Both the position numbers and the translations under genes were made by a program. Of a stretch of DNA of 64,000 nt, positions 2,941-48,316 are shown in pieces. The notes below the pieces were generated by a model. The model was not told where the DNA came from and did no database searches. It saw nothing but the letters and a program-made list of their open reading frames with translations. The first letter of the stretch is position 1. Every line of letters starts with the position of its first letter. This DNA comes from Vicia villosa (Eukaryota > Streptophyta > Magnoliopsida > Fabales > Fabaceae): NCBI RefSeq assembly GCF_029867415.1, contig NC_081185.1, positions 110,044,913-110,108,912 on the forward strand, written 5' to 3'.

Positions 2941-2954
2941 ATAATTAAAAAACA

Positions 2955-3124
2955 GCTCGCTAAGTTGAAAACTCGCAAAGAGCGGCTTAGGCAAAAAAGA
3001 GCGTCTCGATGAATCGAAAACCCGAAAGGGCGATTCAGGCAAAAGTTAGAGACATAAAAAAATAAATAATCAATCCCGGTAGACTTAAAACCCGAAAGGG
3101 GTAGTTTACGCAAAAGTTAGGGAT
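2955..3124 (+). other. Trio of nested hairpins at the start of the Ogre 3' UTR (candidate structured RNA)
   Basis: Fifteen bases after the pol stop, three consecutive modules share one plan: an outer stem, an inner stem, AAAA, then a small hairpin with a GNRA-like loop. Module 1: outer GCTC/GAGC, inner CTAAGTTG (2960-2967) with CGGCTTAG (2983-2990), apical CTC..GAG. Module 2: outer GTCTC/GAGAC, inner GAATCG/CGATTC (3011-3036), apical CCCGAAAGGG. Module 3: outer ATCCC/GGGAT, inner GTAGACT/AGTTTAC (3079-3109), apical CCCGAAAGGG. Each inner stem is followed by a GCAAAA-type spacer. The same trio occurs after the pol of the second element (15556-15716). Function is unknown; packaging, export or translation roles are only guesses. 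Confidence 0.6.
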
Positions 3125-4257
3125 ATATGGCAAGTAACTGTGTTCAGGACAAACTTGATCATTCAAAATCCATAACGGAGTATTCATCAGCAGCAGGTCA
3201 TCTTCTACAAAGCACGAATACAGCGCAACTCGGAGTGGAAGGGAGAGATAACGGTCGTCACGTTTCATCGTAGCCCTTTTCCCGAAAATTACCAATTTCC
3301 AACTTTGTAAATACTCCATGGAATCAAGCATTTGGCTGATTACCATTCCATATATAATAATTTGAGCCTTGTGCTTTTCCTTTGCAATCTAGTCTTATTC
3401 AGTTTCTTGAAATGCATTTTAAGTTTAAACAGTCATTTTCTTGAAACAAATGTTTTCATAAAATAAAAATGAATTTACTTGCAAAAATAAAGGTGAAATT
3501 TCTTTCTAAGGTTTACAAACAATAGGAAGAATGCAAACAGTTGCTCCAAGAACGGTTGAGACTCCGGGAACCAATATTTCCCCATGAGGTCGCTTTGCGA
3601 ACATCTCCCGATGACGGATCTTCACTTCAATTCATATTACTTACTTCGGACAGCGGACAACTGGTAACCAGATATTCCCAACAGAGTTCGAACTCCAAGA
3701 AGAGGACATCTTCTGATCAACAAGAATTCAAGTCGTATCCTTAGGATTTTACATCCGCGACAATTCTATTCACATTCACTTTACATTTTATAATTGTCAT
3801 AATATTCATGCATACATTACATTACAACTGCATAGTCGAATTAGGCTTTTAATCATGAGAATGCCCGAGTCACGGAGGCATGAACTCAAGTTTCCCCTGC
3901 AAGTCCTGGAGAAACTTTTTCCTTCGAGACAACGATCCATGTAGAGAGAATTCCCCAAGCAAGTCAATAGATGGTGGTCTCCCTCAAAGAGATAGTTTGT
4001 TCACTTTTGGAATTCCTCAGCCGAGAATCTCCTGCAGAGCGACATTCGACAGTCTTCTTCAGATAAGATAGTCTGCTTCACATTCCGGAACTCCCTACAG
4101 GTTTGGTATTTCCCCAGCAGGGTCAAGAGGTGCCACTTCTTGGTCAGAATCTCCCAGCAGATCGACAAATGATTCCCCAGCACTTCTTGTCAAGGGAAAA
4201 TTCAGAATCTCCCAGCAGTCTCTTTCATCGACAAATGATTCCCCAGCAGGAGTCAGC
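3125..4257 (+). other. Ogre element 1 3' untranslated region, no gene seen
   Basis: Non-coding sequence between the hairpin trio and the tandem repeats. Short frames exist on both strands, but none resembles a protein and the matching region of element 2 shows none in common. From about 4090 on, degenerate copies of a motif resembling AATCTCCCAGCAG and CGACAAATGATTCCCCAGCA appear, the decayed forerunner of the tandem array that follows. Confidence 0.6.
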
Positions 4258-4540
4258 AAATGGCAGTCTCTTTCAGCAGAAGACAGTTTGCTCACTTTCT
4301 ATCACAACAAAGTCAGCAAATGGCAGTCTCTTTCAGCAGAAGACAGTTTGCTCACTTTCTATCACAACAAAGTCAGCAAATGGCAGTCTCTTTCAGCAGA
4401 AGACAGTTTGCTCACTTTCTATCACAACAAAGTCAGCAAATGGCAGTCTCTCCCAGTAGAAGACAGTTTGCTCCCCTAGCAATTGGCAAATGGCAGTCTT
4501 TTCCCAAGAAAAGACAGTTTGTCTGTTAAATACTCAAGAG
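4258..4540 (+). repeat. 60-bp tandem repeat in the Ogre 3' UTR (three exact copies plus degenerate flanks)
   Basis: Units 4261-4320, 4321-4380 and 4381-4440 are identical base for base; each begins TGGCAGTCTCTTTCAGCAGA. A fourth copy from 4441 is diverged and shortened, and looser relatives (CAAATGGCAGT... ACAGTTTG) continue to about 4700. Exact identity means recent amplification by slippage or unequal exchange. Tat/Ogre 3' UTRs are known to be hypervariable and to seed satellite repeats. Open frames across it arise only because 60 is divisible by three. Confidence 0.9.
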
Positions 4541-9883: not shown

Positions 9884-12800
9884 TGTGGACCGTCCTTTCG
9901 GGCCATACCCCTCCCGTGGGTGGGATACGTGAACTGACTCTTTTTTGTCGATCGGACGCTTTCGCGTCGCTTTTGAAAAAAAGTTTACAGAGTCGCCACC
10001 GACCTTTTATTTTATCCAATGAAGGAAAGGTTTATAAAAGAAACAGAAAAAAGACCTTTGAGAGATTCTGGGTAAGGGGGTAGGTTATACAAAGGGAAGG
10101 TGTTAGCACCCTTTGTATCCATGGTTATCCATGGGCTCTTTAGTTTGCTTAGCTCATTTGCTTTACTTTTCAATTGATTCGGAATGCTTTACCTGTGTTT
10201 TTGAAATACCTTTGCAAATAGAATTTGTAATGATCCTTGTGCGGATATATACAAATGCTTGTTTATCTTTCGAAAGATGTTTTGAAAAGATCGTTAATTT
10301 TGTAATGATCCGTGTTTGGATGTATACAAAATATTGTCTTTTGGAAAATTCGTTTTAAAAAACAACAGTGTATGAGAATTTTGTTTGTTTTGATTTTGAG
10401 CAAGCAAACTAGGAGGTCTACCCTGAGTTAGGAGGTCTTTATCCTTGTTCCCTTTAAAAATCTATCCATTCGTCGGATATAAACAAAAGGTTCGATTTTG
10501 TACTCGAAACAGTAGAAATGTAACTTTGATTTTGAAAAGAGTGAAAAGGGGTTACCCTAGGAGGTGCAAATGTGATTGTGATTGAATTCAGATATTTATC
10601 TTTGAAGTTAGTGATCTGACGGTTCAGTTTTATCTTTGACATACACGCAGTTTATATGGGTGCTGGAAATTAAAATGCGGAAATGTAAAGTGCAGAAAGT
10701 AAATCTACGCTATTACATCGATTGTGCGGGAAATGTAAACTAGCCTATTTACATGAATTTGACATCCTATACATTTATCTAGGAATTTTAAATTGCAAGA
10801 AATAAAAGGCATATTTTTGTATTTTTGTGATTTATTTTAAATATAATTAATGCATTATTAATTAATTTAAAATAAAGAAAAGATGGAAATATGATTAAAC
10901 CTAGCAAATAAGTTTAAAAATATGTACAAAATGTTTGTTAATTGATTTTAGAACAAAACTGATTTTTTTGTAATTTTTGCAATTGTTTTTGGATTTTTTT
11001 TTAAGTTAATTAAAACATAATTATATAAATAATTACACAAATAATTAATGCTTAAAGAGAAAATTATCCTAAATATGTACAAAATTAGTTTATGATATAT
11101 AAACAATATTTGATATGAAGAACAATTTTTTTTATGATTTTTTGACTAATTAAAATAATTAATAAGCAAATATATAAATACATACTAATTAATTATGAAA
11201 AATATTGAAATTTTGAAGAAAAATAAAATATTTTTATTTCAGAAAATAATATATATTTTTAGAAGTCTAAAATATTTTTTGTGGGATTTTTTGAATTTTA
11301 AAAAGATTTTTAATTAATTTAACAAAGAAATTAAAATAAAATAGAAAATAAAATAGAAATAAAAGGATACTAATCCTGTGTGGTTTGATTGAGGGGCCAT
11401 AGCATGGAACTGCGTGTCTGGAGCGTTGGATGGTGGATCAATGAGATCAGATGGTGTTCAAATTGAGACACATGGCACAAGCGTGAGCTGCAAAGCATTG
11501 GATCAGAAATTTTTTAAAATAAAAACACGCGCGCGCCCTGGCCAATAGGAAGGAGCCACGCATCATCTTCTTCACCAGACCCAGTCTTTTACACCTTGCG
11601 TTTGCAGGTGGTGTAAAAGCTTCCATCTATTACACCTGCAAAAAATAGCGAATGCAAGTAAAACGAAGCATTAATCTGGCGCGATACCATGGTTAAGTTC
11701 GTCTGGTTCATACGAATTCAATGGAACCTATTTGAACCTATAATTTGGCCTATTTCAGGAAACCCTAATTTTGAGCTATGAAACCCTAAAATGGCAGATG
11801 CATCAAACAGTCATGGAAATCCAATTGAAGCTCCAGAAACGACCAGAGCTTCAAACCAAACATAAATATGCAATTACATCGTGCTAGATTTACGTGTATG
11901 ATCAGATATGAGTCAATCTTAGTTTGCACCAACCGTGGCTTGTATAGCTCGATTCAGTGGGTTTTAAGACTTGGAAATGATTTGAATAGTTTCAGTGAAT
12001 CTTAGAGATGATGTTTAAGTGTTTAGTTTGAACTGAAACCAGCTGGAAATTAAAATTCGAATTTTAAATTTCCTTGAAAAAGAACAAGTGAGTACAAGTA
12101 TGTTATACACTATTCTTTTGTTCTGAACTTGTCTCCCTCTGTTATTGAAGTATGCTAAGCTATATATAAGCATTTGAATGCTTATAATTGAAGCTAAGTT
12201 GCCTTGTTGCCTTTGTTGAAAGTTTGGTTTTTAAATATTAAAAACCTTGAATTTTTGACCAAGTCTTGACTTGCCTTCAATGCACTTGCCTTGCTCTCCA
12301 ATCTTCTGCAAAAATCAGAGATTCTTTGTGGTGAGTCATGCTTGGAGACCAAGCAACCATTATCCATGCATTTTCTTTTTAATTTTAATCTTAAAGTAAG
12401 ATAAAATTATGCAAAAAATGGCCAATAAAGATATGGGCTTAATCTTGGTCGTGGGAGGCCCATAGTAACATGGCAAAGATGTTTGGACCATAAAAACTTG
12501 GCATCTTTTGGAAAAAAAACATTTTTGAGCAATGTTGATTTCATGCATTTTCCCAAAATTTAGCCAACTTCAACAAGGTGTAAATCCTTCAATTTTTGTC
12601 ATATGAAGGAGATCTTGCACTTTTTGGAAACCTCAAAGAGTCCTCTAACCAATGTCTTTGGTCTCATATCAAAATGATTTTTGGTTCTCCTTGTGTGTCC
12701 ATTTGAAAAAAGTGTCTTTTTGTTGACTTTGAAAATGACCTGTAATGTCTTTGGCCATATTTTTCAAATGGTGAATGCTATGACCATGGGATCAATTGCA

Positions 12801-25539: not shown

Positions 25540-26986
25540 TGTGGACCGTCCTTTCGGGCCATACCCCTCCGTGGGTGGGATACGTGAACTGACTCCTTTT
25601 TTTGTCGATCGGACGCTTTCGCGTCACTTTTGAAAAAGTTTACAGAGTCGCCACCGACCTTTTATTTTATCCAATGAAGGAAAGGTTTATAAAAGAAACA
25701 GAAAAAAGACCTTTGAGAGATTCTGGGTAAGGGGGTAGGTTATACAAAGGGAAGGTGTTAGCACCCTTTGTATCCATGGTTATCCATGGGCTCTTTAGTT
25801 TGCTTAGCTCATTTGCTTTACTTTTCAATTGATTCGGAATGCTTTACCTGTGTTTTTGAAATACCTTTGCAAATAGAATTTGTAATGATCCTTGTGCGGA
25901 TATATACAAATGCTTGTTTATCTTTCGAAAGATGTTTTGAAAAGATCGTTAATTTTGTAATGATCCGTGTTTGGATGTATACAAAATATTGTCTTTTGGA
26001 AAATTTGTTTTGAAAAACAACAGTGTATGAGAATTTTGTTTGTTTTGATTTTTGAGCAAGCAAACTAGGAGGTCTACCCTGAGTTAGGAGGTCTTTATCC
26101 TTGTTCCCTTTAAAAATCTATCCATTCGTCGGATATAAACAAAAGGTTCGATTTTGTACTCGAAATAGTAGAAATGTAACTTTGATTTTGAAAAGAGTGA
26201 AAAGGGATTACCCTAGGAGGTGCAAATGTGATTGTGATTGAATTCAGATATTTATCTTTGGAGTTAGTGATCTGACGGTTCAGTTTTATCTTTGACATAC
26301 ACGCAGTTTATATGGGTGCTGGAAATTAAAATGCGGAAATGTAAAGTGCAGAAAGTAAATCTACGCTATTACATCGATTGTGCGGGAAATGTAAACTAGC
26401 CTATTTACATGAATTTGACATCCTATACATTTATCTAGGAATTTTAAATTGCAAGAAATAAAAGGCATATTTTTGTATTTTTGTGATTTATTTTAAATAT
26501 AATTAATGCATTATTAATTAATTTAAAATAAAGAAAAGATGGAAATATGATTAAACCTAGCAAATAAGTTTAAAAATATGTACAAAATGTTTGTTAATTG
26601 ATTTTAGAACAAAACTAATTTTTCTGGCATTTTTTGAAATTGTTTTTGGATTTTTTAAGTTAATTAAAACATAATTATATAAGTAATTACACAAATAATT
26701 AAAACTTAATGAGAAAATTATCCTAAATATGTACAAAATTAGTTTATGATATATAAACAATATTTAATATAAAGAACAATTTTTTTTATGATTTTTTGAT
26801 TGGTTAGAATAATTAAAAAGCAAATATATGAATATATACTAATTAATTATGTAAAATATTGAAATTTTGAAGAAAAATAAAATATTTTTGTTTCCTAAAA
26901 TAATATATTATTTTAGAAGTTTAAAATATTTTTTGTGGGATTTTTTTGAATTTTAAAACTATTTTTAATTAATTTAACAAAGAAAC

Positions 26987-27019
<33 letters not shown>

Positions 27020-27994
27020 AAGGATACTGATTCAGTGTGGTGAGGAGCTGAGGCTCCATGGTGGCTGCATGTTGTGATGCGTTGGATGGTGGATCAATGA
27101 GATCAGATGGTGTTCAAATTGAGACACATGGCACAAGCGTGAGCTGCAAAGCATTGGATCAGAAATTTTTTAAAATAAAAACACGCGCGCGCCCTGGCCA
27201 ATAGGAAGGAGCCACGCATCATCTTCTTCACCAGACCCAGTCTTTTACACCTTGCGTTTGCAGGTGGTGTAAAAGCTTCCATCTATTACACCTGCAAAAA
27301 ATAGCGAATGCAAGTAAAACGAAGCATTAATCTGGCGCGATACCATGGTTAAGTTCGTCTGGTTCATACGAATTCAATGGAACCTATTTGAACCTATAAT
27401 TTGGCCTATTTCAGGAAACCCTAATTTTGAGCTATGAAACCCTAAAATGGCAGATGCATCAAACAGTCATGGAAATCCAATTGAAGCTCCAGAAACGACC
27501 AGAGCTTCAAACCAAACATAAATATGCAATTACATCGTGCTAGATTTACGTGTATGATCAGATATGAGTCAATCTTAGTTTGCACCAACCGTGGCTTGTA
27601 TAGCTCGATTCAGTGGGTTTTAAGACTTGGAAATGATTTGAATAGTTTTAGTGAATCTTAGAGATGATGTTTAAGTGTTTAGTTTGAACTGAAACCAGCT
27701 GGAAATTAAAATTCGAATTTTAAATTTCCTTGAAAAAGAACAAGTGAGTACAAGTATGTTATACACTATTCTTTTGTTCTGAACTCGTCTTCTTTTATGT
27801 TATTGAAGTATGCTAAGCTATATATAAGCATTTGAATGCTTATAATTGAAGCTAAGTTGCCTTGTTGCCTTTGTTGAAAGTTTGGTTTTTAAATATTAAA
27901 AACCTTGAATTTTTGACCAAGTCTTGACTTGCCTTCAATGCACTTGCCTTGCTCTCCAATCTTCTGCAAAAATCAGAGATTCTTTGTGGTGAGT
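25540..27994 (-). repeat. 5' LTR of Ogre element 2, truncated by the assembly gap
   Basis: Near-identical to 9884-12336 in the left LTR, beginning TGTGGACCGTCC on the plus strand. It stops at the gap at GTGAGT; the left LTR continues 1525 bp further, so that much is missing. Part of the AT-rich middle (about 26620-27085) is clearly more diverged than either side. The minus-strand TATATATA at 27819-27826 matches the one in the left LTR. Confidence 0.92.
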
Positions 27995-30840: not shown

Positions 30841-32093
30841 TTTTAATATTGAATGACCATAATGCCAACACCATCCACATCTAGGGACCAACCAAACTAA
30901 TTGTTTATTACTGATATTCCAATTCTAGGCCATTATGGACTGAGAAAAAGCATATACATAGAAAAGAAGAATGCCTTAAATAAGACTCAAAGTACACATG
31001 TTTGAGATATTGCAAGTCACAGTGTAATGATCATAGTATATGCACAGACATAGTCTCAAAATCTCAATGAGTACAAAAAATAAGAAAGTTGGTGGCACCC
31101 ATGCCTTAATGTCTCAAACCGATAGTTCCTTAACAACAACGCGTCTTTCATAGCTGACACATTTAATTTCCTTAGGAAAAATCTCATAAAACATTAGCAA
31201 TAATGTGAACACTATAACTAGCTATAATGCTATATAACATTCACAGTTTAATGTGAACACTAGCAGTGACATTGACAACCATAATAAGAAGAAAATGTGA
31301 ACATTTTTATGACAAAATATCAAAAACTTTTCAATCCACAACTCTTCTAAGTTCTAACCTCATTGGCCCTACATCTATTAGTTTGAAACAAACTTCCACG
31401 TGATTCAACTAACCTGTAATAAATATGCAACACTGTCATGTGAAAGTTCCTTGATCTGTTATGCAAATTAAAATGTCATGAATGAATCTTAAAAAGGGTT
31501 CTAAAAATGGAGTCTTGAAGTAGAAGAAAAGTAAAGTGAAGGTAACAACTATTTTTCTTTAATAGCAATGAGCATATATAGAAAAAGCAGTAACTTTTAG
31601 AGCTTATATAATAAGATTTTATGTTATGAGTTTATCCTAAAAAACATCTTCTCTCTTTGTCTTTTGCTATGTCCAACATAGGTACTATGCACTACTTTAA
31701 AAAAAATATTTGTCTTTCTATCTCATTGTGTTATATAGTTTGTTTTCATAGTTATGCAACTAGTATGTTATACATGTAACAAGAAAAATTAACTTCTTTG
31801 AGTACTTAGTTAGTATTTTAAGATTAGCTACTAACTCGTATCGACAGAAGATTTTCCTTTTAGAATATTTTAGTGTCTGTTATGATCGATTTAGTGACTA
31901 ATTTTTCAAATCATTCGCTAAACTGGTCTCTAATTCGGCGGCTGAATAAGCTTGTGATGGAATTATAAACCGATTTGAAAATTGCTTCTAGAACTTTTTC
32001 CTATTTTAGTTTTCTTGCATTAGAAGATTCTTAATCATTGCATATAGATCCTAATATTGGCCATGAATTGTTCTCCATTTTTTTGTAGGCTTT
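30841..32093. other. Intergenic region upstream of the subtilase gene
   Basis: AT-rich, no protein-like frame. TTTTTTTGTAG ending just 4 bp before the subtilase ATG looks like a splice acceptor, so a 5' UTR intron is possible. No TATA box could be assigned with confidence. Confidence 0.5.
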
Positions 32094-34406
32094 ATGATGT
32101 TTAGGAGAGTCTTTTTATTCATGGCTCTTATGGCGACGAATTCAATCGCGCTCGCGGCGCAACAAACGTATATAGTCCACATGGACAAGACCAAAATTGA
32201 AGGCTCAATTCATTCTCAAGACAGCACAAAAACATGGTCTGAATCAGTCATTGATTTCATTACTCAAGCTTCAATGGAGGGAGAAGAGCTAGAAGATATT
32301 CTATCACCTCAGCTTCTATATGCCTATGAAACTAACATGTTTGGTTTTGCAGCCACACTTTCTGAGAAACAGCTTGAACACTTAAGGCAAATTGATGGTT
32401 TTCTATCAGTCATTCCTGATGAACTATCAACCCTCGATACGACACATACACCAAGTTTTCTTGGCCTAACTAATGGAAAAGGACTTTGGAGTGCTCCGAG
32501 TTTGGCCTCAGATGTGATCATTGGTGTCCTTGATTCGGGAATATGGCCCGAACATGTCAGTTTCAAAGACTCGGGCTTTTCCCCGATCCCCCGTAAATGG
32601 AAAGGTGTTTGTCAACAAGGCACAAAATTCACATCCTTAAATTGTAACAAGAAGCTTATTGGTGCAAGATACTATTACAAAGGGTACGAAAAATTCATCG
32701 GGAAAATCAATGAAACAACCGATTATCTTTCTGCTAGAGACACTCAAGGCCATGGAACTCACACTGCCTCGACCGCAGCCGGTAATGTGGTTCAAAATGC
32801 AAACATTTTTGGACTTGCTAAAGGCTCAGCCACTGGAATGAGGCGTACATCAAGAATCGCGGCTTATAAAGTTTGCTGGCTCTCTGGCTGCGCAAATTCC
32901 GACCTATTAGCAGCCATGGACCAAGCAGTTTCCGACGGTGTTGATGTACTTTCGCTATCTTTAGGAAGTATTCCAAAACCATTTTATAATGATAGCATTG
33001 CTATAGCTTCATTCGGAGCAACGAAAAACGGCGTTTTTGTTTCTTGCTCAGCAGGCAACTCAGGCCCTTTTGCATCAACAGTCGGAAACGGCGCACCGTG
33101 GATCATGACAGTTGCTGCTAGCTACATTGACAGAACTTTTCCAACACAAGTGAAACTTGGCAACTCAAAAACATTTGAAGGCACATCATTGTACCAAACA
33201 AAAAACCAAACCAACCAACAACTCCCACTTGTGCATGGAACAACAGCTGGTAAAAAGAGAGAAGCAATGTTTTGCACAAAAGGTTCACTAGATAAAAAAC
33301 TTGTTTTCGGAAAAATCGTTGTTTGTGAAAGAGGAATCAATGGTAGAACCGAAAAAGGCGAGGTAGTGAAAAAATCAGGCGGATACGGAATTATACTACT
33401 CAACTCAGAGAATCAAGGCGAAGAGCTTCTCTCCGACGCTCACGTCTTACCAGGTACTTCATTAGGCGCTTCAGCAGGTAAAGCCATAAGAATCTACCTC
33501 AACACTACTAAAACTCCAACAGCTTCAATTTCATTCCTAGGAACAAGATATGGTAACATTGCACCAATCATGGCAGCATTTTCTTCTCGAGGACCGAGTA
33601 TCGTAGGACAAGATATCATCAAACCAGACATAACTGCACCTGGTGTTAACATCTTAGCTGCATGGCCATCAAAAACAAGTCCAAGCATGATCAAATCTGA
33701 CAAAAGAAGAGTCCTATTTAACATAGTTTCAGGTACCTCAATGTCTTGTCCTCACGTAAGCGGCATCGCAGCGTTGATTAAATCAGTTCACAAAGACTGG
33801 TCACCTGCAATGATCAAGTCATCTCTTATGACAACAGCCTACACATCAAACAACAAAAATCTCCCGATTTCCGATCTCGCTTCAAATAACAACTCATCTT
33901 CTGCTAACCCTTTTGCATTTGGCTCAGGACATGTTAATCCCGAAAGCGCTTCTGATCCTGGATTAGTCTATGACATTACCACCAATGACTACTTGAACTA
34001 CTTTTGCAGCCTTAATTTCACATCATCAGAGATTGCTATATTAACAAAAACTAACTTCACATGTTCTCAAAAACATGTTGTACAAGTTGGTGACTTGAAC
34101 TATCCTTCATTTTCTGTTTTGTTTAGCAGAACAGTGAAGAATGTGACATATAAAAGAGTTGTTACAAATGTTGGAAAATCAGAAAGTGGTTACTATGAAG
34201 CTAAAGTTGAACAACCTAATGGAGTTGTTGTGAATGTTGAACCAAGGAGATTGAAGTTTGAGAAATTGGGTGAGAAATTAAGCTATAAAGTTACATTTTT
34301 AGCAATTGGAAAAACAAGAGTTGTTGGTAGTTCATCATTTGGATCACTCATTTGGGTTTCTGGCAAATATAGAGTTAGAAGTCCTATTGCAGTAACATGG
34401 CAATAG
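32094..34406 (+). CDS. Subtilisin-like serine protease (plant SBT1 type)
   Basis: A single 770-residue open frame; many plant SBT1 genes lack introns. A signal peptide (about 1-21, FLFMALMATNSIALAA) sends it to the secretory pathway. An inhibitor I9 prodomain (about 25-118, QTYIVHMDK) is followed by peptidase S8 with all catalytic residues: Asp147 (GVLDSGIWPE), His220 (DTQGHGTHTAS), oxyanion Asn322 (SAGNSGP) and Ser549 (GTSMSCPH). A PA domain is inserted at about 350-500 (KIVVCERG), and a fibronectin-III-like domain closes the chain (about 655-770, VTNVG). Length is typical. It most resembles SBT1.1-like enzymes; the member number is a guess. Expected to cleave extracellular proteins or peptide precursors after prodomain removal. 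No defect seen. Confidence 0.95.
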   Translation: MMFRRVFLFMALMATNSIALAAQQTYIVHMDKTKIEGSIHSQDSTKTWSESVIDFITQASMEGEELEDILSPQLLYAYETNMFGFAATLSEKQLEHLRQIDGFLSVIPDELSTLDTTHTPSFLGLTNGKGLWSAPSLASDVIIGVLDSGIWPEHVSFKDSGFSPIPRKWKGVCQQGTKFTSLNCNKKLIGARYYYKGYEKFIGKINETTDYLSARDTQGHGTHTASTAAGNVVQNANIFGLAKGSATGMRRTSRIAAYKVCWLSGCANSDLLAAMDQAVSDGVDVLSLSLGSIPKPFYNDSIAIASFGATKNGVFVSCSAGNSGPFASTVGNGAPWIMTVAASYIDRTFPTQVKLGNSKTFEGTSLYQTKNQTNQQLPLVHGTTAGKKREAMFCTKGSLDKKLVFGKIVVCERGINGRTEKGEVVKKSGGYGIILLNSENQGEELLSDAHVLPGTSLGASAGKAIRIYLNTTKTPTASISFLGTRYGNIAPIMAAFSSRGPSIVGQDIIKPDITAPGVNILAAWPSKTSPSMIKSDKRRVLFNIVSGTSMSCPHVSGIAALIKSVHKDWSPAMIKSSLMTTAYTSNNKNLPISDLASNNNSSSANPFAFGSGHVNPESASDPGLVYDITTNDYLNYFCSLNFTSSEIAILTKTNFTCSQKHVVQVGDLNYPSFSVLFSRTVKNVTYKRVVTNVGKSESGYYEAKVEQPNGVVVNVEPRRLKFEKLGEKLSYKVTFLAIGKTRVVGSSSFGSLIWVSGKYRVRSPIAVTWQ

Positions 34407-39509: not shown

Positions 39510-42500
39510 ATGGATAATAATAACTATAGTTCATCTTCTCCATATGGATATCCAAACCCTTATATGTATCCCCCTAATCCCAACCCTAACCCTAACCCTA
39601 ACCCTCATCAACCATATCCACCTCAAGGTTCAATTCCTGATCCATTTGCACATGCTCATCCACCATATCCACCTCAAGCTTCAGTTCCTGATCCATATGC
39701 TCATGCTCATGCTCATCCTTATCCATATCCTTATGGTTCTTCACATTCTTTGAACTATTCACATGCTAGATCGCCGTCTTTATCGTCATCACCATCGTTC
39801 AGTTCTAATGCCCCATACGAGTATCCATACCCTCCTCCTCCTCATCAGTTAGTACCACCACCCTCAGCTCCACCCTCTTATCCTTCTTATCCATACCATG
39901 TTCCTCCAGGGACTCATAACCCTCCTCAACCTGGCCTTTCGCACCATGCTAGCTTATTACAACATGGATCATCGTCGCATCATTATTATTATCCACACAC
40001 TGCTCCTCATGAAGACCGTCCTGATGCCCATTCGCGTCATAATAGCTTCTCTGGTCATTACTGGCATGACACGTCTAGTTCAACAGCCGTTGGTGGTGTT
40101 GGTGTTGGTGGAGGATCGCAAAGTAGTGGTGGTGATAGTTCCAAACCTTCTGCTTATCCACGTTTGGATGAACTAATGAACAATGTTAAGTTGTCTGATG
40201 ACCAATCAACTGCTCCTGCATCGCCTCCTGCTCCTGCTGCACAACCTTTTATGCATTCAATTTCGGTACCGAAGATTCAACAGAAGAAAGAGGATTTTTA
40301 TGGACATTCTAATAATAACTCCTTCTCGGGTTGGGGATCCTCATACCCGAGCCGGGTGAACTCAGGTAGGCTTTCGGATTATTCTGGCTCGTTTAATGAC
40401 TCAATGCATAGTCAGAGCTTGCAGGTTGTTCCGGTGCAGAACAAAGGGTCCTTGAAAGTTTTGCTCCTTCATGGAAATTTAGATATATGGGTTCATGAAG
40501 CCAAAAATCTTCCAAATATGGACATGTTTCACAAAACATTGGGGGATATGTTTGGTAAATTACCTGGTAGTGTGAGCAATAAAATTGAAGGAACGATGAA
40601 TAAGAAGATTACAAGTGATCCTTATGTTTCAATTTCAGTTTCAAATGCCGTAATTGGAAGGACTTTTGTCATTAGCAACAGTGAAAATCCTGTTTGGACT
40701 CAACATTTCTATGTTCCTGTCGCGCATAATGCCGCTGAAGTGCACTTTGTTGTTAAAGACAGTGATGTTGTGGGTTCCCAGCTCATTGGTATTGTGGCGA
40801 TTCCAGTGGAACAAATATACTCAGGGGAACAAGTTGAAGGAACTTACCCTATTCTGAATAGTAATGGGAAGCCTTGTAAGCAAGGTGCCGTATTGAGCCT
40901 ATCCATTCAGTACATCCCAATGGAGCAACTGAGCTTTTATCATAAAGGAGTTGGAGCAGGGCCTGAATATATAGGTGTTCCTGCTACTTATTTTCCTTTG
41001 AGGAAAGGTGGAAATGTTACTCTATATCAAGATGCTCATGTTCCAGATGGTAGTCTCCCGAATGTGTTGCTTGATAGTGGGATGTTTTATGTGCATGGAA
41101 AGTGTTGGCATGACATGTTTGATGCCATAAGTCAAGCTCGCCGCTTGATTTATATTACAGGATGGTCAGTGTGGCACAAAGTTAGGTTGGTAAGAGATGC
41201 CGGTCATGCATCAGATTATACATTGGGTGATCTTCTGAGGACAAAGTCACAGGAAGGAGTAAGAGTGCTTCTCCTTATTTGGGATGATCCTACATCAAGA
41301 AGTATTTTGGGCTATAAAACAGTAAGTAATACAATACTTGTTCCTAGTATGACCACTAAGGTTTACTTTATTCTGTGTAAGATCTATATGATTGAATGCT
41401 TCTATTAATTTTTTATTAACATAAGTATACTATGTATGATTTTCCCTTTTAATTCTAATTATGTGATACTCTTTGGCTATATATTAAGGATGGTGTTATG
41501 GCAACTCATGATGAGGAAACTAGACGATTTTTCAAGCACTCATCAGTGAATGTGCTGCTTTGTCCTCGCAGTGCCGGAAAACGCCATAGCTGGGTCAAGC
41601 AAAAGGTTAGATTTTACAGCTACTTTTCTGATTGATTAGTGCTGTCAAGTAGCAGCTATATTGGCCTATACTGCTATAGGTAGCAGAATTTGGACATACC
41701 GTTATTGTAACGTTGGTTTTTGTTGTTATTCAGTCATTCTCTAAAACCTTGCATTATTGGGATTTAGACGTGTAAATTCTTATTTAAATTTAGCAATTGA
41801 AAATGCTCGTCATGCATTTTGAGTATTATTACTGTGAAAATAATGATATGCTATTACATACTGCTACAGTTTTTTGGTTTCAGAGTTTTACATTGAATTT
41901 GTATGTCTTCTTGTCAGGAAGTTGGAACTATATATACTCATCATCAGAAAACTGTAATTGTGGATGCTGATGCTGGAAATAACAGAAGAAAAATTGTAGC
42001 ATTTGTTGGTGGACTTGATTTATGTGATGGCCGATATGATACTCCTCAACATCCTCTCTTTAAGACACTACAAACAATACATAAGGATGACTATCACAAC
42101 CCAACTTACACGGTAATCTATGATTTCAGACTCCACTTTGTAGCATGATCAAAACTAATTACAGTTATCCATCAATTATATGATAAAAATGGGATTAGTG
42201 GAAGAGCTTTTGTGAAAAAATAGAAACAGAATGAATGAATCTAAGTTTTATTTCATGACAGGGTAACACTGGTGGTTGTCCAAGGGAGCCATGGCATGAT
42301 TTGCATTCTAAAATTGATGGTCCAGCAGCTTATGATGTCTTAACTAACTTTGAGGAACGCTGGTTAAAAGCTTCAAAACCACAAGGGATAAAGAAGTTGA
42401 AAATTTCATATGATGATGCTTTACTTAGACTGGAAAGAATTCCAGACGTTATTGGCATTAACGACACTCCTAGTGGTGACGATGATCCTGAATCATGGCA

Positions 42501-45500
42501 TGTTCAGGTAATTACATTTCTAGAAGTAATTATTTTTTACTATATTTTCTCTTTTTCTCGAAAATGGAATTATTGATTCTATTTACTTTGGAATATAGAT
42601 ATTTCGTTCAATTGATTCAAATTCAGTTAAGGGATTTCCAAAAGACCCAAGAGAGGCAACTGGCAAGGTAAACAAAAGCTTTTTGTTTCGGTTTTTATTT
42701 TTCATGTTTAATTTCAATTCACCAAACATCAATCTGAGTTGTTCCTACAGTCTTTGTTTAAGATGTTGCCAGGCATTAAGTCAGGGGAGCCCTTTTGAGC
42801 ATATAAATTCTTTGGTGACTGAGATACCTGATAAAATGGACGTTTGCATTGATAATGAAAGTTACCCTTCGGATGATAATACCATTTCTAGTGACGATGT
42901 AACTGATACTTCACTGTTATCTGATTGGACTGGTTGTAATGGCACTACCGACAGTGTATCATGTCCTCCTTCAGAGCTAGGTGGTTGTGGTAATACCCAC
43001 CTTGACTTGAGATGTGTTTTTCCTTTAAGTTGGATCGAAGAAATGGAAACGAAGGCAGAAGAAGTAGTTTGCAGCTATGAAGTTCCTGAAATTTTGGATA
43101 AAAATTCAAGTTGTTCACTTTGTAGTGACAAAGATCATAAAACTAACAGGCATAAGCAATCACAAGAAGCGGCTCGAAGAGAAGATTCTAATGATAATTG
43201 CTTATTTTATCCTACAGCTTTCGCCATCAGTTCAGATCATTGCGAACACTTCCAGAAACACTGGGGAAAAGGCCATCCTGTAGTAGTCCGAAATGTGCTC
43301 CGAAGTAGAAAAAACCTCAGTTGGGATCCTTTGGTCATGTTCTGTGATTATCTTGAGGAGAGCATTTCAAGATACGAGAATAATAAGGACTTACTTGAAG
43401 CTTGTTTGGATTGGTGTGAGGTGGAAATTAACATTAAACAGCATTTTACTGGATCTCTTAGATGTCGACCTCAGAAAAATGATTTCCATGAGATGCTGAA
43501 ATTAAATGGATGGTTATCTTCCCAGCTATTCAAAAAACAGTTTCCAGATCATTTTGCTCAAGTAATTGATGCTCTTCCACTTCAAGAATACATGAATCCC
43601 ATGTCCGGTCTTCTGAATTTAGCGGCATATATGCCAGATGGGATTGCAAAACATGACAAAGGCCCATATGTCCATATTTCTTATGGCTGTGCTGACAAGG
43701 AAGCTTGTTCCGTGCTAAATCTCTCTTATGAGCCATATGATGTGGTTGATATCATGGCATATACCACAGATGCTCCTCTCTCACCAGACCATCTTGCTAA
43801 TGTAACTAAGCTATTGAAAAAGCATCAAACTCTGTGTCAAAGGGGGTCGCCAATGAATACTTCCGAACACGTAGAAGACAAGGAACGAAAAGAAACAGAG
43901 AGTATTGCCATGGAAGGAACCGACTTTTACAGGAGAGTCAATAGAACATCTAGCATTAATGAAGTCAAAACAATGCCTAGTCAGAGTTTAGAGGAAAATG
44001 CTTCCATCAATGAAGAATGTGTTTCTGGTTCAGATTCAGATTCAGATTCCGAGAAAACACAAAGCTCTTTACCTCTCCGCAAGACAGTTCAAAGCACTGA
44101 AATGTATTCTGTTGCTCAGTGGGATGTCTTCCGAAGACAGGATGAACCAAAGCTTCTAGAATATCTCAAAAGACATGCTGATGAATTTTCTTGTGCCAGT
44201 GAACATCACGGCAAGAAGATGGTTCAGCCAATTCTAGATCAGAGCATCTTTCTGGACACTACTCACAAAATGAGACTGAAGGAGGAATTCAATATCGAAC
44301 CGTGGACCTTTGAGCAACATGTTGGAGAAGCTGTTATCGTTCCCGCCGGATGTCCATACCAGATTAGGAATTCTAAGTGTTGTGTTCATGTGGTATTGGA
44401 ATTTATGTCTCCTGAGAATGATGGAGAATGTAACAACGACTCTGCAGGGGCTGGTTCTGCAGATGCAACAGCAGAGTGTGCTATTAACTGAATTAAGCAA
44501 ACAGACTGGTAAGACAACACTGGAAGCAGAGACAGTTGTTGGTGATTCATCACAGAGCGAATCACGTCTTGCGGGGAAGAAGGTGAAACTTCCCTTGTTC
44601 GAAGGGGGTGATCCGGTGGCGTGGATCACACGAGCTGAAATTTACTTCGATGTTCAGAATACATCGGATGCGATGCGAGTGAAATTGGCTCGACTGAGCA
44701 TGGAAGGTACAACAATCCATTGGTTCAACTTACTCATGGAAACAGAGGACGATCTGTCCTGGGAGAAATTGAAGAAATCGTTGATCGCGCGTTACGGCGG
44801 TCGCCGATTAGAAAATCCATTTGAGGAGCTATCCACCTTGCGTCAAACTGGCAGCGTGGAAGAATATGTTGAGGCGTTTGAGTTACTGTCATCACAAGTG
44901 GGGAGATTGCCCGAGGAGCAATATTTGGGGTATTTCATGAGTGGGTTGAAACCTCCAATTAGAAGGCGTGTTCGCACTCTGAATCCTGTGACACGGATGC
45001 AGATAATGCGAATTGCTAAAGATGTAGAGAATGAATTGAATGAGGAAGACGAAGACGAAGACGGAGAAAGAAGTTACAGGAAGAAGCAAGGAGTGGACCG
45101 CTTGGGTCGTGGTGAGTGGGCTGGGCCTACAAACAAAAATAGAAGTGGGTATAACCTGTCTAACAAGGATTTAACCAGAGTGTCTCAATCGGGTGGATCC
45201 ACCCCGAATCAAAATACAGGTTCTACTGGGTACAATCAAAGTTACAATTCCTCGATGCTTTCCACAGGACGAAAAGGCGATTCCGACCACCGTCTGAGTT
45301 CTTCGGAGCGATGGAAGGGTGTGAAGAGTCTCCACAATGAAGAGATGGTTGAACGAAGAGCAAAGGGACTTTGTTTTAAGTGTGGAGGTAAATTCCACCC
45401 AACCCTTCACAAGTGCCCTGAGAAGAGTTTAAGAGTATTGATTCTGGGTGAAGGGGAAAGTGTGAACGAAGATGGGGAGATTATATCCATGGAAGTTAAT

Positions 45501-48316
45501 GAAATTGAGGAGGAAGAGGCAGAAGCTGAATGTAAAGTGATGGGAGTTTTAGGGAGCATGGGGGAGTATCACACTATGAAGATTGGCGGTAAGTTAGAAA
45601 GTATTGATGTGGTGGTGTTGGTGGATAGCGGAGCTAGCCACAATTTCATATCCTCCCGAATTACTGCTGCTTTGGGCTTACCTATTACACCCATCGCAGC
45701 TAAACGAATTAAATTGGGAGATGGTCACAATGTGGTTTCACAGGGAGTGTGTGAAGGAGTTAAATTGAAATTGGGTCTTATAGAGGTGGTGGTGGATGCT
45801 TTAGTGTTAGACTTAGGAGGAATGGATGTGATTTTGGGCGTCTCTTGGTTATGTACTTTGGGTAAAGTGATAATGGATTGGAAGGCCTTGTCCATGCAAT
45901 TTCAGCATGAAGGAAAATCTGTTGTATTACAAGGTCAAGGAGAACTTCCTAAAGAACTGGAGGTTGTTGATACTGATGACATCTATCCTGACAAAGTGTT
46001 GGGTACAAGGATCACAGTACAAGCAGGTGTGACTGTTCCGCAGAGTCTTATTAAGTGGAAGAATAAGTCTTTGGATGATGTTACTTGGGAAGATGATGCT
46101 TATCTGAGGGGACAATTTCCTGAATTTAGCCTTGAGGACAAGGCTAGTTTTAAGGAGGGAGGTGTTGATAGAGATATGGATGACGAGGTGGGCTTTAACT
46201 ATGGACCTAAGCCAAAAGTCTGGAGGGTTTATACTAGAAGAAGTGGTAAAGGAATAAAAGAATAGAATAATTATAGGATTCTGTTACTATAATTATGGGA
46301 GTTTTGTTATTATAGGAGTTTGTTATTATTTATAGGAGTCTGTTCCTATAAAATAGGAATAAGCTTAGGGCTATAAAAGAGGGTAGAAATAAGGGATTTA
46401 GGATTCTACTTAGGTTTTGAAAATCACCGTCTTGGTGAGGGGAGCACGGCGTGCTTAGGGGCTGATAGATATTCTCTATCAGTTTGTTATGTTCATCACT
46501 GCTAGTTTTCTATAATTGACATTCTTTTAATTCTTCTATTCATATTTTCATTGTTCATTCCTATATTCAAATAAGAATCCATCAGTATGAGAAGATAAAT
46601 TACTATTGCATATTTACAGAACCTTGTATGTGGGAAGAATGCGCTGATTGACATGAGCATACATACAGCATACGTGAAGGCTATCCGTGCTGCACAGCAT
46701 TACATTTATATCGAGAATCAATATTTCATAGGGTCTTCTTACAATTGGAGTCAACATAAAGACCTTGGTATGATATTCCTCTTTTTGCATAGGTGCTGTA
46801 CTAATATTTTCTAAAAATATGAGTTTTGGCATGGATAAATAATCCAACGCCGGAATCCAGTATGGGTAATTTATGCTAAATTTTGTTTTGGCAGGTGCTA
46901 ATAATTTAATTCCAATGGAAATTGCTCTAAAGATTGCGGAAAAGATTAGAGCAAATGAGAGGTTTGCAGTTTATATAGTTATTCCAATGTGGCCCGAAGG
47001 TGTTCCAACAGGTGCTGCCACACAAAGGATTCTATTCTGGCAGGTATGGTTCAAATTGAAATCCGAATATGAATGTCAAAAACTTGGCAAGGATTATGCA
47101 TATGTTAACCTGGAATGATTTTTAAATTTTTTGCAGAATAAAACAATGCAAATGATGTATGAAACAATTTCTAAGGCTTTAGTTGAGGCCGGGCTTGAAG
47201 CAGCATTCTCTCCACAAGACTATTTGAATTTTTTCTGTCTTGGTAATCGAGAGGCCATAAATATGTATGAAAATGTCAATGTATCAGGAAATCCTCCCCC
47301 AGCAAATAGTCCACAAGTATGTCACTAACGCCTAAGAAAAATATTCCATACACTCTTTATGAAATCATGATTTTGTTTTGACAGTTTCTCAATCCGCCCC
47401 CATATATGCCCAAATATGGAAAAATACAGTCGCGTGGAGCGGACTGATAAACTGTCTTTTGTTTTTAAAGGCATACAATAATCACTATTGAGTGAATCAA
47501 CTCATAATTGTTTTGTATGGTGGTGATTTCTTTCCAGGCAAATTGTCGAAATAGCCGACGATTCATGATTTATGTTCATTCAAAAGGCATGATAGTTGAT
47601 GATGAATATGTGATTGTGGGGTCTGCGAACATTAACCAACGCTCTATGGAAGGAACGAGGGACAGCGAGATTGCAATGGGAGCATACCAACCTCATCATA
47701 CTTGGGCAAGAAAATATTCCTATCCACTTGGACAAGTAAGAATACTTTTTTACATCACTGGCTACTAATATTTGCCATCTTTGCTAAACAACCGATTTCA
47801 TGTTTCACTTGTGTGGCACTCGAGTAGAAAAGATGAAGTTGCAAAACATCATAAAATATTTGTTAGTCATGTAAAAATTATTGGCGTCTCCTGCCATTTA
47901 TGATAACGATTTGGCCTTATAGTTTTCATTGGCGGCTCTTTGATTTTTGTTTTCGTGCACATATGTTTGAATCCATACATGCATTATAATCTGACAAATT
48001 CTTTGGAAACTATACGATACAGATCCATGGATATAGGATGTCACTTTGGGCAGAACATACCGGAACACTTGATGACTGCTTCTTGCAACCTGAGAGCCTT
48101 GAATGCGTACGAAGAGTTAGAGCAATTGGTGAAATGAACTGGAAACAATTTGCAGCAAGTGAAGTATCAGAGATGAGAGGGCATCTTCTAAAATACCCTG
48201 TAGATGTTGATCGAAAGGGGAAAGTCAGATCACTTCCCGGTCATGAAGAGTTTCCTGATGTAGGAGGGAAAATTGTTGGATCTTTTCTTGCCATGAAGGA
48301 GAATCTTACCATTTGA
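39510..48316 (+). CDS. Phospholipase D, beta/gamma type with a long Pro/Tyr-rich N-terminus; ten exons
   Basis: Exons by GT-AG reading: 39510-41321, 41489-41605, 41918-42112, 42262-42507, 42599-42667, 46620-46767, 46895-47043, 47137-47316, 47538-47735, 48023-48316. Phases all agree, giving 1135 residues. Domains: Pro/Tyr/His-rich N-terminus (1-310), C2 calcium/phospholipid-binding domain (about 312-467), first HKD motif (His652-Lys654-Asp659, [10 protein letters not shown]) and second HKD motif (His986-Lys988-Asp993, [11 protein letters not shown]). The long tail and C2 domain point to the PIP2-dependent beta type (PLDbeta1-like), which hydrolyses phospholipids to phosphatidic acid at membranes. 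Start: the ATG at 39510. Oddity: intron 5 is 3952 bp because a chimeric retro-insert sits in it; splice sites on both sides are intact. Confidence 0.93.
42704..44491 (+). CDS. Intronless retrocopy of a KDM3/JMJ25-like JmjC-domain protein, C-terminal half
   Basis: 595 codons from the first ATG, uninterrupted. Homology to plant JMJ25/KDM3-type histone H3K9 demethylases runs from [10 protein letters not shown] (zinc-finger end, about residue 12) through [64 protein letters not shown] and [13 protein letters not shown] to [20 protein letters not shown] and LEFMSPEN (about 570). The last 26 residues are out-of-frame gag. Such genes normally have many introns here; none remain, so this is a cDNA copy lacking the N-terminal half. 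Iron ligands seem lost: the usual H-x-D/E segment reads SYEPYD and the distal GCPHQ reads GCPYQ, so demethylase activity is unlikely. No promoter recognised; it could be exonised in PLD transcripts. Confidence 0.75.
   Translation: MFNFNSPNINLSCSYSLCLRCCQALSQGSPFEHINSLVTEIPDKMDVCIDNESYPSDDNTISSDDVTDTSLLSDWTGCNGTTDSVSCPPSELGGCGNTHLDLRCVFPLSWIEEMETKAEEVVCSYEVPEILDKNSSCSLCSDKDHKTNRHKQSQEAARREDSNDNCLFYPTAFAISSDHCEHFQKHWGKGHPVVVRNVLRSRKNLSWDPLVMFCDYLEESISRYENNKDLLEACLDWCEVEINIKQHFTGSLRCRPQKNDFHEMLKLNGWLSSQLFKKQFPDHFAQVIDALPLQEYMNPMSGLLNLAAYMPDGIAKHDKGPYVHISYGCADKEACSVLNLSYEPYDVVDIMAYTTDAPLSPDHLANVTKLLKKHQTLCQRGSPMNTSEHVEDKERKETESIAMEGTDFYRRVNRTSSINEVKTMPSQSLEENASINEECVSGSDSDSDSEKTQSSLPLRKTVQSTEMYSVAQWDVFRRQDEPKLLEYLKRHADEFSCASEHHGKKMVQPILDQSIFLDTTHKMRLKEEFNIEPWTFEQHVGEAVIVPAGCPYQIRNSKCCVHVVLEFMSPENDGECNNDSAGAGSADATAECAIN
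44418..46265 (+). CDS. Chromovirus gag-protease fused in frame to the chromodomain tail (RT, RNase H, integrase deleted)
   Basis: 615 codons from the first Met within gag. Gag core at about residues 70-210 ([18 protein letters not shown]-type helices, [14 protein letters not shown]), a zinc knuckle ([15 protein letters not shown], about 318-332) and an aspartic protease with DSGASHNF (about 407). [19 protein letters not shown] and QGQGEL follow, where the text switches from post-protease sequence to the pol C-terminus: [19 protein letters not shown], a chromodomain (about 535-570). A chromovirus pol normally has about 1000 residues of RT/RNase H/integrase between these. The junction preserves the frame. 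This would be a non-autonomous element; its 5' LTR is absent, replaced by the JmjC copy. Confidence 0.8.
   Translation: MMENVTTTLQGLVLQMQQQSVLLTELSKQTGKTTLEAETVVGDSSQSESRLAGKKVKLPLFEGGDPVAWITRAEIYFDVQNTSDAMRVKLARLSMEGTTIHWFNLLMETEDDLSWEKLKKSLIARYGGRRLENPFEELSTLRQTGSVEEYVEAFELLSSQVGRLPEEQYLGYFMSGLKPPIRRRVRTLNPVTRMQIMRIAKDVENELNEEDEDEDGERSYRKKQGVDRLGRGEWAGPTNKNRSGYNLSNKDLTRVSQSGGSTPNQNTGSTGYNQSYNSSMLSTGRKGDSDHRLSSSERWKGVKSLHNEEMVERRAKGLCFKCGGKFHPTLHKCPEKSLRVLILGEGESVNEDGEIISMEVNEIEEEEAEAECKVMGVLGSMGEYHTMKIGGKLESIDVVVLVDSGASHNFISSRITAALGLPITPIAAKRIKLGDGHNVVSQGVCEGVKLKLGLIEVVVDALVLDLGGMDVILGVSWLCTLGKVIMDWKALSMQFQHEGKSVVLQGQGELPKELEVVDTDDIYPDKVLGTRITVQAGVTVPQSLIKWKNKSLDDVTWEDDAYLRGQFPEFSLEDKASFKEGGVDRDMDDEVGFNYGPKPKVWRVYTRRSGKGIKE
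46282..46584 (+). repeat. LTR of the deleted chromovirus (303 bp)
   Basis: Starts TGTTACTATAATTATGGG after a purine-rich stretch (GGAATAAAAGAATAGAA, 46251-46267) and ends AATCCATCA. Contains GGGCTATAAAAGAGG as a TATA-like box (46368-46383). Internal TTATAGGAGT repeats. No second LTR exists in the intron, so the ends rest on TG/CA and position only. The intron acceptor follows 35 bp later. Confidence 0.6.

Follow-up and report, generated by a model that had tools for sequence, protein, structure and literature searches.

The question raised by this locus is how part of a JmjC gene and part of a Ty3 retrotransposon came to lie base to base within one intron of a PLD gene, in a 64,000-nucleotide stretch of Vicia villosa DNA (the whole stretch that was analysed, hereafter the window). 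The chimeric JmjC-Ty3 insert is confirmed as real, far above chance expectation, and the borders given for it in an earlier note on this DNA need correcting. Chimeric retrocopies are often too old for reading; here close parental alleles, sibling elements, an empty site and all three joins are readable at the level of single bases, so that the order of events can be argued instead of guessed.

A PLD gene with a chimeric insert in one intron

The host gene (39510..48316, plus strand) is of the PLD-beta type, with an open spliced frame of 10 exons, GT-AG introns and a product of 1135 aa. The protein has what we take to be both HKD motifs; a Pfam scan of four pieces returned C2 and PLD_C in two of them and no family in the other two, the PDB match is to plant PLD alpha 1, and the best homologue with full cover is 98% identical over residues 640-900. 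The insert-bearing intron spans 42668..46619 (plus strand) and measures ~110 nt when empty, as judged from the exon ends of the spliced frame and from the empty intron in L018 and L025. Both halves of the chimera have the same orientation, sense to PLD; the open spliced PLD frame and the intron borders bear out the earlier description of a sense insert within a single PLD intron.

The exact 30-nt junction between JmjC and element sequence, for which a genome-wide search had been proposed as a check, occurs once in the 2.03-Gb assembly (1888 contigs), and no second copy of the chimera was found in that assembly. The JmjC frame has 54 matches in the genome, of which the window alone covers the whole frame in one piece. 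Elsewhere in the window, two direct repeats of 2.46 kb (9884-12336 and 25540-27994) are 97% identical and enclose long minus-strand frames; they are probably the two LTRs of a large element.

The JmjC half is a copy of spliced mRNA

Window positions 42733..44420 (plus strand) align to six exon blocks of KDM3/JMJ28-like genes on C53 and C466, at 94.7-100% identity (98-100% except for the 57-bp last block, which extends 12 bp beyond the junction). The blocks are joined directly, the five introns between them (211, 679, 80, 95 and 250 nt in C53) having been precisely removed, from which it follows that the source was a spliced mRNA. This upholds the earlier claim of an intronless JmjC copy fused to a Ty3 chromodomain element; the condition named as fatal to it, that the introns might be absent from the parent as well, was checked, and the genes on C53 and C466 have all five. 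One of these introns is of the GC-AG type in both JMJ28-like copies (intron 3 of L009, between 7605 and 7686, and its counterpart in L010), and its exact absence from the retrocopy shows that the GC donor was used in the mRNA.

The best protein match of the frame is the Vicia villosa JMJ28-like protein P0003, with 99% identity over 97% of the frame; unlike P0003, the window frame has neither the WRC domain (PF08879, listed for P0003) nor the C-terminal tail. Both ends of the copy are cut within coding sequence: it begins inside the coding region and ends at ...TCTCCTGAGAATG inside a later exon. The start, previously placed at 42704, moves to 42733, and its first two bases (TC, 42733..42734, plus strand) are common to the target intron and the JMJ28-like mRNA when the window is compared with the parents and the empty site. 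The 595 codons formerly assigned to JmjC shrink to ~562; the other codons cover intron sequence before the copy and gag, out of frame, after it.

C53 and C466 are 94-97% identical to one another. Of the 10 substitutions that separate them, the window has the C466 base at 6 and the C53 base at 4, and it also sides with C53 at a 6-nt indel. Because agreement is divided in this way, the source was probably an unsampled JMJ28-like allele, with neither C53 nor C466 matching it exactly. A third candidate parent, C789, which contains the parental junction region with one mismatch, was rejected: its match to the captured stretch is confined to 50 bp, at 88% identity.

The element half belongs to a deleted Ty3 subfamily

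The remainder of the insert (44421..46584, plus strand), delimited by alignment to complete elements, matches six fetched loci. Those on C384, C2, C638 and C179 are 98.6-98.7% identical over the whole of 44420-46584; a copy at C6:14.4 Mb has ~285 additional bases at the point of an internal deletion; and the C1315 copy, apart from its 5' LTR, matches only up to 45940, where its frame continues into a reverse transcriptase domain. L015, a relative with 96.8% identity, retains a reverse transcriptase domain. L014 and L015 represent other stages, one with ~285 extra bases at the deletion point and one with reverse transcriptase, and in the family member that keeps reverse transcriptase, frames resembling another element come next.

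The element ORF has its own ATG and runs over 44421..46262 (plus strand), with gag, protease and chromodomain joined by the reverse transcriptase/integrase deletion of the subfamily at ~45940. Pfam recognises Retrotrans_gag, Ty3_capsid and RVP_2; the Chromo match (E 0.0011, 19.3 bits) lies under the Pfam cut-off of 25.1 bits; a chromovirus would have its chromodomain behind the integrase, which is deleted in this subfamily. The sole LTR (46166..46584, plus strand; TGATAGAG...CCATCA) is 419 bp long, complete at both ends, and aligns to the LTRs of the complete copies. An end of the insert in an LTR had been proposed before and stands, with 46584 as the exact last base; what is refined is that the LTR itself begins at 46166 and that the gag-pro-chromodomain ORF stops inside it.

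Five siblings with two LTRs are complete elements of 2661-2951 bp, all five of which, when tested, have exact 5-bp target duplications. The LTR pairs of the four siblings with the same deletion are 99.3-100% identical, which indicates that the family moved recently. The deletion itself is present at five genome loci including the window, each with 0 mismatches (2 allowed). Its identical form in four other complete copies dates it before the chimera, and the earlier view of it as part of the chimeric event is therefore not supported. Non-autonomous LTR elements with gag only are known as TR-GAG. The carrier subfamily resembles them in having two LTRs, gag and protease without reverse transcriptase or integrase, and differs in keeping a chromodomain-like stretch in frame behind the protease, with an ORF that ends within the LTR.

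The join between the two halves

Following ...GAGAATG, C53 reads TTGCAGAATGTA where the element reads ATGGAGAATGTA (44421..44432, plus strand), so that, in the product's register, the two share 10 of 12 bases, 8 of them consecutive. Such a match arose in 9.5e-5 of 200,000 random position pairs (range 5e-5 to 1e-4), and in ~6e-4 of 40,000 trials when nearby registers were allowed. For C466, whose TTGCGGAATGTA agrees with the element at 9/12 in register with a run of 7, the corresponding chances are ~7e-4 exactly and ~6e-3 with nearby registers; a null model for run length gives ~5e-4 for the exact run of 8 (C53) and ~1.5e-3 for the run of 7 (C466). The 12 bases are identical in 4/4 sibling elements tested, and upstream of the switch the element's own GGAGAAACAG differs from the parent, with 5/12 matching. 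The homology falls short of perfect: the breakpoint base itself does not match. It is important to note that at 44405, the nearest distinguishing site, the window agrees with C466, so that the weaker figure, 9/12, is perhaps the one that applies.

At the join, element and mRNA therefore share an in-register microsimilarity of 10/12 (C53) or 9/12 (C466), and template switching, as the earlier note had read it, is the most likely account of it. The pair of GAGAATG motifs (44414 and 44424) on which that reading had rested is another matter: one lies in JmjC sequence and one in the element, 10 nt out of register, and the product retains the two of them, unlike the product of a switch at the repeat, so they are not the junction homology.

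The insertion site

An empty-site PLD-beta copy on the same scaffold, 705 kb away at C6:109.38 Mb, reads ...ACCAAACATCAATC AAATTGT GTATGAGAAG... across the contiguous intron. In the window the left flank ends in CAATC and is followed by the JmjC part; after the final CA of the LTR comes GTATGAG. Compared with the empty site, the insert has replaced 7 bp (AAATTGT), and on the right it meets the target exactly where the LTR ends. The first five bases of the right flank (GTATG, 46585..46589, plus strand) were not found in the left flank or the left part of the intron, so that in place of the 5-bp target duplication of a canonical integrase insertion there is a 7-bp deletion. The left end of the insert joins the intron directly, without an LTR, and for this insert neither a second LTR nor long repeats were found, within it (42500-46800) or elsewhere in the window; nor is there a polyA tract at 46584 (46560-46600 examined). 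CATCAAT at the left junction was considered as a remnant of an LTR and dismissed, the empty site showing it to be intron sequence. The 5' LTRs of the siblings continue CATCA-ATTGG ahead of what is presumably the primer site; the two further bases expected in linear cDNA are missing from the window, which would fit trimming by integrase.

The empty-site copy could be a duplicate, or else represent the other haplotype. It diverges from the insert-bearing PLD copy by 3.73% across 2868 bases on the right-hand side of the insert, with the adjacent 204 bp 99.0% identical. On the left, the alignment gives a difference of 37% over 3632 bases and BLAST blocks are 96.6-98.4% identical; we discount the 37% figure, as the other copy is rearranged in that stretch. 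There (L025, C6:109377500-109387400, at 919-4486) an upstream intron is interrupted by ~3.6 kb with a reversed 757-codon frame, which starts like the window frame 32067-34403, presumably subtilase-like; the interruption would be either a rearrangement or a misassembly.

Divergence and age

Private change is similarly low in the two halves. The retrocopy differs from both parental copies at 5/1687 bases (0.30%; 2 silent and 3 replacement substitutions), and the element half has 7 substitutions in 2164 bases (0.32%) and one 6-nt unit (45045-45050) not shared with five siblings, the sixth copy having been excluded from this count as it lacks the 3' half. With plant rates lying between 6.5e-9 and 1.3e-8 per site per year, the insert would be, very roughly, 0.2-0.5 million years old, an upper bound because reverse-transcription errors and unsampled alleles also enter the count. 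The insert looks younger than the split of the two PLD copies, since the PLD divergence is ~6x its private divergence per lineage. Constraint, which had been suggested from the clean frame, is unsupported: in a random simulation, five changes kept the JmjC frame open in 77% of 4000 trials, so that an open frame is no sign of it.

How the insert probably formed

We consider the best explanation to be LTR-mediated retroposition involving a single template switch and a one-ended insertion, to which we give a probability of about 0.75. RNA of the non-autonomous gag-pro-chromodomain element and a JMJ28-like mRNA would have been packaged together, with reverse transcriptase acting in trans. The order 5'-mRNA-element-LTR-3' implies that a minus-strand reverse transcriptase copied the element first and the mRNA second; to judge from that order, the cDNA would have covered the 3' LTR first, then chromodomain, protease and gag. 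Close to the start codon of gag, the enzyme would have jumped to the JMJ28-like mRNA at the imperfect 12-nt match, copied toward the 5' end of the mRNA and halted within the coding region. The LTR end would have been joined by integrase or a cellular ligase, and the LTR-less end by microhomology end joining. What the sequence shows directly is a product that has a single complete LTR end and carries spliced mRNA at the opposite one, without polyA and without a target duplication, 7 bp of the target having been deleted. The similar low private divergence of the two halves speaks for this account, as does the sufficiency of a single insertion with 7 bp lost when the window is set against the empty site. 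Against it stand the absence of a 5' LTR and of a target duplication, each of which an LTR retrotransposon should have if its cDNA had been completed normally, the imperfect switch match (weaker against C466), and the fact that the exact source allele is neither C53 nor C466.

The same two absences could be explained if a two-LTR chimera had inserted normally with a GTATG duplication, and a later deletion had removed the left duplication together with the 5' LTR and the 5' portion of the captured sequence. We regard this as unlikely: the five other complete copies tested do have two LTRs and 5-bp duplications, and the 2-nt microhomology at the left junction suits a deletion equally with an insertion, but the deletion would need an endpoint at most 12 bp from the original insertion point, the left flank being otherwise present by comparison with the empty site. 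An artefact of assembly or of the joining of haplotypes is the least probable account of all. Unmerged haplotypes could exist (C53 and C466 are so similar), and the second PLD copy on C6 is interrupted by the reversed subtilase gene; the joins, however, are located where the mechanism predicts them, and the PLD gene is otherwise intact with normal splice sites.

Two other routes would each be very surprising. Truncated elements and JMJ28-like retrocopies belong to sequence classes that are common in plant genomes, and one of each might have inserted independently, side by side; yet there are zero intron bases between the halves, the match at the join is in register, the halves have similarly low divergence, and one 7-bp deletion accounts for the whole insert. 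LINE-type retroposition, for its part, commonly leaves 5'-truncated ends, and could have acted on a read-through chimeric mRNA from a JMJ28-like gene holding an element insertion. LINE-like retroposition of mRNA is known in dicots, as outlined in PMC4838847, but for this locus it is largely refuted. Neither the polyA tract nor the target duplication of a LINE-type retrocopy is present at 46584, and U5 is complete to the terminal CA, whereas a LINE copy made from RNA would stop around R/U5 and carry polyA. Moreover, the parental exon continues past the junction point at both C53 and C466, and the junction is without the element's 5' LTR and leader.

LTR-mediated retroposition has precedents. 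Switching guided by microsimilarity between LTR-element RNA and a packaged mRNA is the model of Tan et al. (PMC5408686), and the insert agrees with that model, as outlined there, in combining spliced cellular mRNA and an LTR element through microsimilarity, in the same orientation and with a complete LTR end in place of polyA at the 3' end; it departs from the outline in having one LTR, no target duplication, a 7-bp deletion and an LTR-less end with 2-nt microhomology. Maize Bs1 and the rice, Arabidopsis and Thlaspi retrogenes flanked by LTR elements, as summarised in PMC8764390 and PMC4838847, are likewise plant LTR elements with host-gene sequence. Unlike these, going by the same summaries, the window has LTR-element sequence on one side only and the assembly no further copy of the chimera; the LTRs on both sides that define an LTR-flanked retrogene (type A1 as summarised in PMC8764390) are not found here. 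Abnormal template switching is among the capture mechanisms listed by a 2026 review (PMC13317346). Judged by title, no papers on JmjC capture by retrotransposons were found.

Coding potential and implications

Gag begins at 44421, in a frame other than that of JmjC, which runs on to 44491, so that no JmjC-chromodomain protein is encoded; adjacency of the two domains on DNA does not make them one protein. In the window copy and 9 proteins chosen among the 120 hits listed (an alignment to KDM3B was also made), we examined HxD...H, which we take to be the metal-ligand positions of KDM3. The first His is S or C in 10/10 aligned rows and the distal His is Y in all 8 rows that reach the site; the Asp is kept in 6/10, with E in the window copy and P0003. 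The ligand set of an active KDM3 is thus not intact, and catalytic loss in JMJ28-like proteins is a prediction from these alignments. By the same comparison, the loss of the histidines is older than the retrocopy, because the JMJ28-like parent already lacks them. The functional link once suggested between the JmjC fold and the chromodomain is therefore not supported, on both counts, the discordant frames and the missing histidines of parent and aligned relatives.

The insert is best described as recent and pseudogene-like, and should be spliced out along with the PLD intron. It may nonetheless affect PLD, through the polyadenylation or promoter region of the sense LTR or through a frame exposed by intron retention. 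From PLD the reading frame crosses the 5' part of the intron and enters JmjC without a stop (window 42599-44488, 630 codons), and retention of the intron could yield a predicted PLD-JmjC fusion. We attach no meaning to this continuity as such: one frame in three, open over 65 AT-rich bases, is put down to chance.

The insert is clearly a legible case of a known mechanism, in which the one-ended insertion is the unusual part. It is possible, and we offer this only tentatively, that single-LTR cDNAs produced by switching onto cellular mRNA still enter genomes through one-ended strand transfer and end joining, and that a PLD-JmjC fusion can be made here. If so, single-LTR chimeras without target duplications would come to resemble 'free' retrogenes once the LTR part decays, and the share of LTR elements in making plant retrogenes would be underestimated.
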